Position numbers and translations under genes: made by a program
In this document: positions 18,048 through 19,527 of the stretch, piece by piece
Position numbering within the stretch: the stretch's first letter is position 1
Layout: each line of letters begins with the position of its first letter
Source: Sporichthya polymorpha DSM 43042
Lineage (GTDB): Bacteria > Actinomycetota > Actinomycetes > Sporichthyales > Sporichthyaceae
Reading direction: 5' to 3'
Assembly: GCF_000384115.1 (NCBI RefSeq)
Contig: NZ_KB913029.1
Location: 840,907-904,906, forward strand
Length of the DNA: 64,000 nucleotides
The notes under the pieces: model-generated
Told to the model about the DNA's origin: nothing
Database searches by the model: none
The model's input: only the letters and a program-made list of their open reading frames with translations

Positions 18048-19527
18048 GCGTGCCGTCCTTTCCCGAGCGACCCCCCAGAATCCCACGGGCCCCGCGACGG
18101 GCGCGAATCGGCAGCAGCGGCCGCCCCGTCCGGGCCCGCAGCGCTCCGACCAGCACACCTGCCCCGTACGCGACGTCCTCCGCCACGTGACCTGCGACGA
18201 AACTCACCCGGTAGTTCGGGGGCCGCGACGCCCACCAGGCGTGCGCCGGTCCCGCCGCGAGCAGCACGACGGACGCGAACCGCGTCCGCCGTCGCGTCAG
18301 CCCGGCCAGCAGGAGCGGGCCGAGGAACTGGGTCGCGTACGTGCCGGACGCCCGGGCCGTCTTGGCCGTCCGGTCCACGACCGCCCCGGCCGTCCCGCTC
18401 ACCGGCAGCCCGGCCCCCGCCCGCACGCGCCGCTCGTCCAGCAGCGCGCCGCCGAACGCCGCCGCCGCGAGCCCCGGCCGGCGCGCGAGCAGGGCCGCGA
18501 GCCCCGCCGCCGTCCACGGCTCCAGGATCAGCGGCGCCATCGCGTCGGGATGCCGCCGGCTCAGCGGCCCCGCCGACGTCCCGTAGTGGAACCGCCGCCC
18601 CAGCACGCCCCGCCAGGTCGCGGGCTCGGTGTGCTCCACCCGCACCGTCGGCTCGTACCGCACCCGCCACCCGGCCTCGACCAGCCGCCAGATCAGGTCG
18701 ACGTCCTCCCCGTACCGGAGCCGCTCGTCGAACACCGCGCCGCCCGCTGCAGTGGAGATGTCATCTCCAACGAATGCGGCCGATCCGGTGGAGATGTCAT
18801 CTCCAGTGGGGGCGACGGCGAGCAGGGCCGCGCGGCGGGCGAGGAGGGCGGCGGTGGGGACGTAGGAGACCGGGGTCCCGGGCGCGACGCGCGCGACGCG
18901 GGGCCCGAGGTCGAGGGCCCCGCGGGCGCCGGCCGGGGCGCCGGGGGCGGCGACGATGCGCGGCGCCACGGCGGCGACGGCGGGGTCGGCCAGGTGCCCG
19001 GCGAGGGCGTCGATCCAGCCCGGCGACGGGACGCAGTCGCTGTCGAGGAACGCGACGTACTCGGTCGGAATCGCCGCAAGGCCGGTGTTGCGCGCCGCCG
19101 CGGGACCGCCGTTGGCCTCCCGGCGGATCAGGCGCGCCCCGCAGCCCGCGGCGACCCTCGCGATAGCGGCGGAATCGGGCGAGGCGTCGTCGACGACCAG
19201 GACGGGATACGCGTCGCCCAGCGCCCGCAGGCAGTTCTCCAGCGCCGCCGCCCGGCCGTGGACCGGGATCAGCACCGTCACCGACGCGCCCGCAACGGGG
19301 AACGGTCGCGGATGCGCGAGCCCGGCGTCGATCAGCCGGCACGCGAGAGCTCCCCCGTTCGCGCTGCGCACCGCACCGCCGCGCAACTCCTCGAGGGCGG
19401 CGACTCCCGCCGCCCCGAGTCGCAGCACCCGCCGCGGAACACCGCCGACCAGTACCGCGTCATCGATCTGACGCAGCGTCGGATCGAACTCGACGCGGGT
19501 GCCGACCGGCACCCCCGACCGGGTCAC
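18016..19527 (-). CDS. mftF: Mycofactocin glycosyltransferase MftF with in-frame palindrome insert
   Basis: 503-residue family 2 glycosyltransferase that elongates the mycofactocin aglycone with beta-1,4-glucose. After an N-terminal extension the GT-A domain begins at SVTVLIPVHGRAAALE, followed by LVVDDASPD, NGGPAAARNTGL and the DSDCVPSPGW metal site; the GEDVDLIWRL catalytic segment and a hydrophobic C-terminus follow. GTG at 19527 overlaps the upstream SDR stop (GTGA). Odd: about residues 240-260, between LLAVAPT and FDERLRYGEDVD, a segment contains GDDIST twice, encoded by two copies of a short DNA palindrome (18753-18769, 18789-18805). The frame is kept and the insert falls in a loop. Confidence 0.93.
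   Translation of the reverse strand: MTRSGVPVGTRVEFDPTLRQIDDAVLVGGVPRRVLRLGAAGVAALEELRGGAVRSANGGALACRLIDAGLAHPRPFPVAGASVTVLIPVHGRAAALENCLRALGDAYPVLVVDDASPDSAAIARVAAGCGARLIRREANGGPAAARNTGLAAIPTEYVAFLDSDCVPSPGWIDALAGHLADPAVAAVAPRIVAAPGAPAGARGALDLGPRVARVAPGTPVSYVPTAALLARRAALLAVAPTGDDISTGSAAFVGDDISTAAGGAVFDERLRYGEDVDLIWRLVEAGWRVRYEPTVRVEHTEPATWRGVLGRRFHYGTSAGPLSRRHPDAMAPLILEPWTAAGLAALLARRPGLAAAAFGGALLDERRVRAGAGLPVSGTAGAVVDRTAKTARASGTYATQFLGPLLLAGLTRRRTRFASVVLLAAGPAHAWWASRPPNYRVSFVAGHVAEDVAYGAGVLVGALRARTGRPLLPIRARRGARGILGGRSGKDGTHGQPLVRDGR
18753..18805. repeat. Two copies of a 17-bp palindromic element inside mftF
   Basis: TGGAGATGTCATCTCCA occurs at 18753-18769 and 18789-18805, a spacing of exactly 36 bases, so both are read in the same frame (GDDIST). 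A third identical copy is intergenic at 57467-57483. Each has 8-bp arms around one central base. The pair adds about 20-25 codons to mftF relative to the usual continuity of this region. Confidence 0.85.

Follow-up and report, generated by a model that had tools for sequence, protein, structure and literature searches.

Several kinds of short palindromic or inverted repeats are dispersed in bacterial genomes. GTAG REPs, BIMEs, and REPINs are palindromes tagged at one end by the tetranucleotide GTAG and go together with RAYT (Y1) transposases, and MITEs consist of terminal inverted repeats around an interior and are accompanied by a target-site duplication. The CGTC REPs are short palindromes located downstream of genes, some of them intragenic, and have no dedicated transposase; an unpaired tag at one end, often TGTC, is followed by a stem of 8-9 bp that begins A-T and by a loop of 4-5 nt (Di Nocera et al. 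2013, PMC3733652). CGTC REPs have been reported in Proteobacteria, Chlorobi, Bacteroidetes, Spirochaetes, and Thermotogae but not in Actinobacteria, which are also missing from the many phyla that the same paper lists for REP-/RPE-like palindromes in general (PMC3733652). In Rickettsia, RPE-4, RPE-6, and RPE-7 have an ATGAC motif, and different families are found at the same intragenic site in different species (PMC3767692); dimers or clusters of the Rickettsia elements encode 20-30 amino acids (PMC3733652). The spread of REPs that lack a transposase is an unsolved case.

Palindrome copies in mftF and in the window

The window, i.e. the whole 64,000-nucleotide stretch analyzed here, contains three identical copies of a 17-bp palindrome, TGGAGATGTCATCTCCA on the plus strand. 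Copies 1 (18753-18769) and 2 (18789-18805) start exactly 36 bp apart and are separated by a 19-bp spacer (18770-18788), one of 59 array spacers that are mostly 19-21 bp long and loosely resemble CCGGATCGGCC. Copy 3 (57467-57483) lies in intergenic DNA, 58 bp beyond the 3' end of the gene at 57542-59305 (minus strand) and 175 bp upstream of the gene at 55579-57291 (minus strand). It is adjoined by a 46-bp hairpin of a second family (57506-57551, GAAAGGGTGACACCCCTTACT / AGTAAGGGGTGTCACCCTTTC), which shares the TGWCA motif. At up to three mismatches, these three copies are the only matches to TGGAGATGTCATCTCCA in the window, compared with 0.09 expected from shuffles, which confirms the identical pair, its 36-bp distance, and the third copy given in the preliminary description.

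Its placement of the pair in frame within mftF, with GDDIST encoded twice, is also correct. The coding (minus) strand of the pair, on which copy 1 encodes GDDIS, reads TGDDIST...VGDDIST within the ORF at 18016-19527 (minus strand), and this ORF scores 331 bits (cut-off 280) with the NCBIfam profile TIGR03965 of MftF, the mycofactocin glycosyltransferase. The neighboring MftD, MftE, MftC, and MftA were identified in the same profile search. The mycofactocin gene cluster occupies 16872-22682 of the window and comprises MftD, MftF, an SDR-like gene, MftE, MftC, and MftA, with a short gene at the place of MftB (SDR and MftB were assigned without a profile search).

The two copies lie in a 27-residue segment of MftF (residues 239-265; 18733-18813, minus strand), bounded by RRAALLAV and FDERLRYGEDVDL, which is missing from the aligned MftF of two species of the sister genus (G003 and G004). 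The sister species G002, whose MftF is 90% identical, has a 16-residue insert with a different arrangement at the same point, TGCACTGGAGATGACATCTCCAGTGCAGATGACATCTCCAGTGC. The AlphaFold model of MftF has a mean pLDDT of 42.8, with values below 50 in the insert region, and a contig search with MftF for related loci returned only an unrelated glycosyltransferase. The palindrome had been described as inserted twice. The absence of the extra segment from the sister genus agrees with insertion, but the pair is one tandem array and, because an array period of 36-38 bp recurs at many loci, it probably results from one insertion followed by array growth.

Genome-wide census and placement relative to genes

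In the 5.5-Mb genome that contains the window (G000), we found 79 copies of TGGAGATGWCATCTCCA, with A or T allowed as the center base, at up to one mismatch; 60 of them are exact, and the reversed-pattern control gave no match genome-wide. There are 122 exact copies of the 17-mer in the sister species G002, and none in G001, a species of the same genus, or in G003 and G004. Among 395 genomes sampled from the class, only two beyond G000 and G002 have a 15-mer match, one each, and a literature search for the 17-mer string gave no match. The 17-mer is thus far above chance frequency, and the expectation of 0.09 matches per window, the empty control, and the absence of the MftF segment from the sister genus leave a negligible probability that we are looking at chance matches or at an ordinary conserved segment of MftF. 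We rejected an association with phages, for which 6 isolated single matches among 2.9 million viral contigs were found. The 9-mer GATGWCATC was also discarded as a wider marker; it is coding-friendly and for this reason frequent in other genomes, the reversed control carrying TAG, and it is therefore uninformative.

Copies are single or arrayed; from start to start, arrayed copies are mainly 36-38 bp apart, with further classes at 17-18 and 27-30 bp, and the arrays of G000 mostly reach about 110 bp at most. The 59 spacers are loosely alike and far more variable than the 17-bp core. These spacers (16-21 bp between copies) show no excess pairing of their ends, which led us to reject a tag-plus-stem-loop reading of the arrays. 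The main flank types of TGGAGATGWCATCTCCA are TGCAC, CCCAC, CCGG, and CGTT, and in isolated copies the bases outside the core at positions 1, 2, 4, and 5 are complementary and co-vary. This flank co-variation indicates that the extended palindrome matters, even if shared subfamilies, and not independent events, may account for part of it.

Gene settings were taken from a gene caller based on codon usage, for which these sequences served as training data. The 54 clusters of G000 comprise 16 that are intragenic, 16 between convergent genes, 21 between tandem genes, and 1 between divergent genes; 10 of the 51 clusters of G002 are intragenic. The nearest stop codon is at a median distance of 12 bp, and at 25 bp or less in 58 of 76 cases, and in tandem gaps the upstream stop is closer than the downstream start in 36 of 45 cases. 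Copies directly after stop codons and between convergent genes, together with the co-varying complementary flanks of isolated copies, would suit RNA hairpins at gene 3' ends, acting as bidirectional terminators or mRNA stabilizers and selected as structure. Nevertheless, we consider this explanation improbable, given the in-frame copies within genes, including tilS and mftF, and the 9 of 45 tandem cases in which the upstream stop is not the closer one. In addition, structure alone leaves the identical core at unrelated loci unexplained, and a scan of four sources, namely the window and three further loci, gave no Rfam match.

Within genes, all 13 spacings between copies are divisible by 3, compared with 15 of 70 intergenic spacings (p=7e-8). 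Intragenic copies use two of the three reading phases, encoding GD(D/V)IS or EM(T/S)SP in 39 of 39 copies, with orthologues of G000 and G002 counted separately. This frame and phase bias reflects purifying selection on the frame and on the encoded peptide. The host genes include tilS, an ScpB-like gene, and genes for acyl-CoA synthetases, MMPL-type transporters, a hydantoinase, and a methyltransferase, all named from their translation, mftF alone being named by profile. The idea that the element tolerates insertion in a cofactor-biosynthesis enzyme was too gene-specific as stated, most copies being located directly after stop codons.

Orthologous sites in three species of the genus

G000 and G002 were compared over 379 kb of aligned sequence (92% identity). 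Most alignable G000 sites are also occupied in G002, with differences in unit number and flanks, and because most sites are common to both species, recent movement is rare. The G002 arrays at C15:143503 and C11:83515 are missing from G000, with boundaries that are not sharp, and no clean target-site duplication was found in the filled/empty site pairs. In the 35 copies that were aligned, divergence is 4.1% at the 16 arm bases, compared with 16.5% in the 12-bp flanks. The center base is flipped between A and T in 5 of these 35 orthologous copies, compared with a background of 0.6% for such changes (p=2e-6), some of the five belonging to arrays in which it is uncertain how copies should be paired; the flip at G000 position 3393478 concerns a single copy with near-identical flanks. 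Such a flip is expected from re-pasting in either orientation or from inversion of the site. We also observe longer inverted repeats, e.g. CCTTGCGTCCGTGAAAGTGGT..ACCACTTTCACGGACGCAAGG, between palindrome pairs at L016 (about 1518-1643) and L050 (about 1522-1764); at L050, a 260-bp stretch is missing from G002, which has one palindrome.

The second family, AGGGGTGWCACCCCT, has 39 copies in G000, 32 in G002, and none in 58 other genomes searched, and shares with the first family the TGWCA center and the location at gene 3' ends. At one place in an acyl-CoA dehydrogenase gene, family 2 is present in frame in G000 (L142:14900-15000) and family 1 in G002 (L086:5351-5394). A second locus of family replacement is C15:32962, where family 2 is found and the other species has family 1. 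In two unselected G002 contigs, TGWCA is the center of 29 of 60 intergenic palindromes versus 12 of 597 genic ones. Often AGGGGTGWCACCCCT is part of a longer hairpin, AAAGGGTGACACCCCTTACT..AGTAAGGGGTGTCACCCTTT, as at 57506-57551 of the window, L139:18697, and L254:7692. In G003, represented by few data and mostly by selected loci, CGCATGWCATGCG occurs a few times in intergenic positions (L245:4302, L246:2997, L175:3624) and may represent one more TGWCA-centered arm family. Other repeated palindromes have an even center, e.g. GCTCATGCATGAGC, found 6 and 9 times in the sequence sampled from G000 and G002 loci.

G001 has 63 copies genome-wide of CGGATGWCATCCG, an arm-swapped relative of the 17-mer that has no copy in G000 and G002. 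We find these copies directly after stop codons and in arrays with a 25-27 bp period, with spacing classes similar to those of G000, and the in-frame copies encode ADDIR or RMSSA-type peptides. Seven of the G001 sites have an orthologous counterpart in G000. Flanking genes are shared in 8 of 65 cases versus 3 of 346 for other genes of the same loci (Fisher p=3e-5, leaving out two orthologous sites found by a biased search). Alignment of G000 host genes to G001 revealed a pair of CAAGGGATGACATCCCTTG, 36 bp apart, in the hydantoinase gene, and CGGATGTCATCCG in the methyltransferase gene, in both cases at the same place as in G000. One shared site of G000 carries CGGGATGACATCCCG, which is nearer to the G001 arms and is perhaps a relic. 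At L162:2921-2960 of G001, the TGWCA-centered GGCGTGTCACGCT is located between a murB-like gene and its convergent neighbor, where G000 has three family-1 copies.

Because several of the CGGATGWCATCCG copies of G001 occur at orthologous sites, the sites and the TGWCA center persist while the arms change in concert between species. We tentatively extend this to sites fixed throughout the genus, the arms of which would be rewritten in concert in each species, with the TGWCA center and the positions kept even in frame. If true, this would represent an element overwriting its own older copies genome-wide or, alternatively, a chromosome-organizing protein that switched its specificity and took dozens of sites along with it.

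As the main alternative explanation, the palindromes in general could be binding sites of a dispersed DNA-binding protein of the nucleoid- or chromosome-organizing type, which followed a change of its specificity in one lineage. The low divergence of the arms relative to the flanks, the invariable A or T at the center of aligned copies, and the constant spacer length despite varying spacer sequence are all consistent with such sites, as are spacing classes that differ by about one helical turn, with similar classes in G001, and orthologous positions kept with arms differing in concert. Nevertheless, several arm families are present side by side in one genome and take each other's place at a single site, array number varies freely, the chromosomal distribution is only weakly non-uniform (KS p=0.047), no regulator was identified, and matching double changes would be needed at many sites, which makes us doubt this explanation.

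A candidate repeat family and its relation to known systems

We favor, with a probability of about 0.6, the reading that these are lineage-specific, very short, center-symmetric palindromic repeats with an invariant TGWCA center, which behave like miniature elements of the REP/RPE type. We infer mobility from differences in presence/absence, array number, arrangement, and family at orthologous sites and from the center-base flips. The preliminary description had also proposed mobility, and these differences support it indirectly, but no mobilizing enzyme was found, and the rarity of recent movement, the lack of a clean target-site duplication, and the ambiguous pairing behind some of the flips weigh against it. 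A RAYT/Y1 transposase was rejected as partner, since a search of G000-G004 with the Y1 transposase profile (PF01797), which included positive controls, gave nothing at E<=0.1. Among the inspected genes flanked by copies (L032, L118), none was recognized as a transposase; the candidate between two copies at L032 looks GPP34-like by eye.

In the proposed mechanism, copies would be pasted as hairpin-forming DNA by a putative cellular or lost enzyme, which could also work on copies already in place, where it would replace or add units, and arrays would grow through unit duplication as well. Selection would purge insertions that break frames or promoters, and the survivors would be copies after stop codons and in-frame copies in tolerant protein segments, such as that before FDERLRYGEDVDL in MftF. 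Mobile repeats cover the coexisting families, the replacements, the variable arrays, and the flips better than binding sites do, whereas binding sites better explain the conserved core and the discrete spacing classes (17-18, 27-30, and 36-38 bp), which simple mobility does not predict. Both explain the retention of sites.

The palindromes provide a clear case from Actinobacteria in which palindromic DNA contributes peptide segments to central-pathway enzymes (MftF, TilS, and others). Since three congeners show shared sites, swapped arms, center flips, and in-frame array growth, the spread and replacement of such repeats can be tested by strain comparison.

With GTAG REPs, BIMEs, and REPINs, these palindromes share a short size, a high copy number, dispersion, fixed-spacing arrays, and a location at gene 3' ends, but GTAG is found neither in the core TGGAGATGWCATCTCCA nor in the main flank types, and the five genomes have no Y1/RAYT gene. 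Like MITEs, they are small, non-coding, dispersed inverted repeats, but neither an interior flanked by terminal inverted repeats nor a target-site duplication was seen, the filled/empty comparisons lacking sharp boundaries, and no partner IS was found. The likeness to CGTC REPs includes the location downstream of genes, the presence of TGTCAT, intragenic copies that keep the frame, and the lack of a detected transposase; nevertheless, TGTCAT is at the symmetric center of a perfect palindrome, and the spacers between copies do not pair. The two may be distantly related.

The likeness to Rickettsia elements drawn in the preliminary description is fair for RPE-4, RPE-6, and RPE-7 (CGTC-type), because these, too, have the ATGAC motif and exchange one family for another at a given intragenic site, and, as in the present case, insert in frame in many unrelated, often housekeeping genes and comprise several families. 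It does not extend to size and symmetry. RPEs are about 100-150 bp long with a conserved encoded peptide, whereas our elements measure 17-110 bp, have a 17-bp core with a phase-dependent peptide, form perfect center-symmetric palindromes with central TGWCA, are mostly intergenic after stop codons, and reside in an actinobacterial host. The palindromes work like RPEs and CGTC REPs yet fail their defining tag or size features, and are set apart from both for this reason; the best reading is a REP/RPE-like palindrome family that is new for Actinobacteria.
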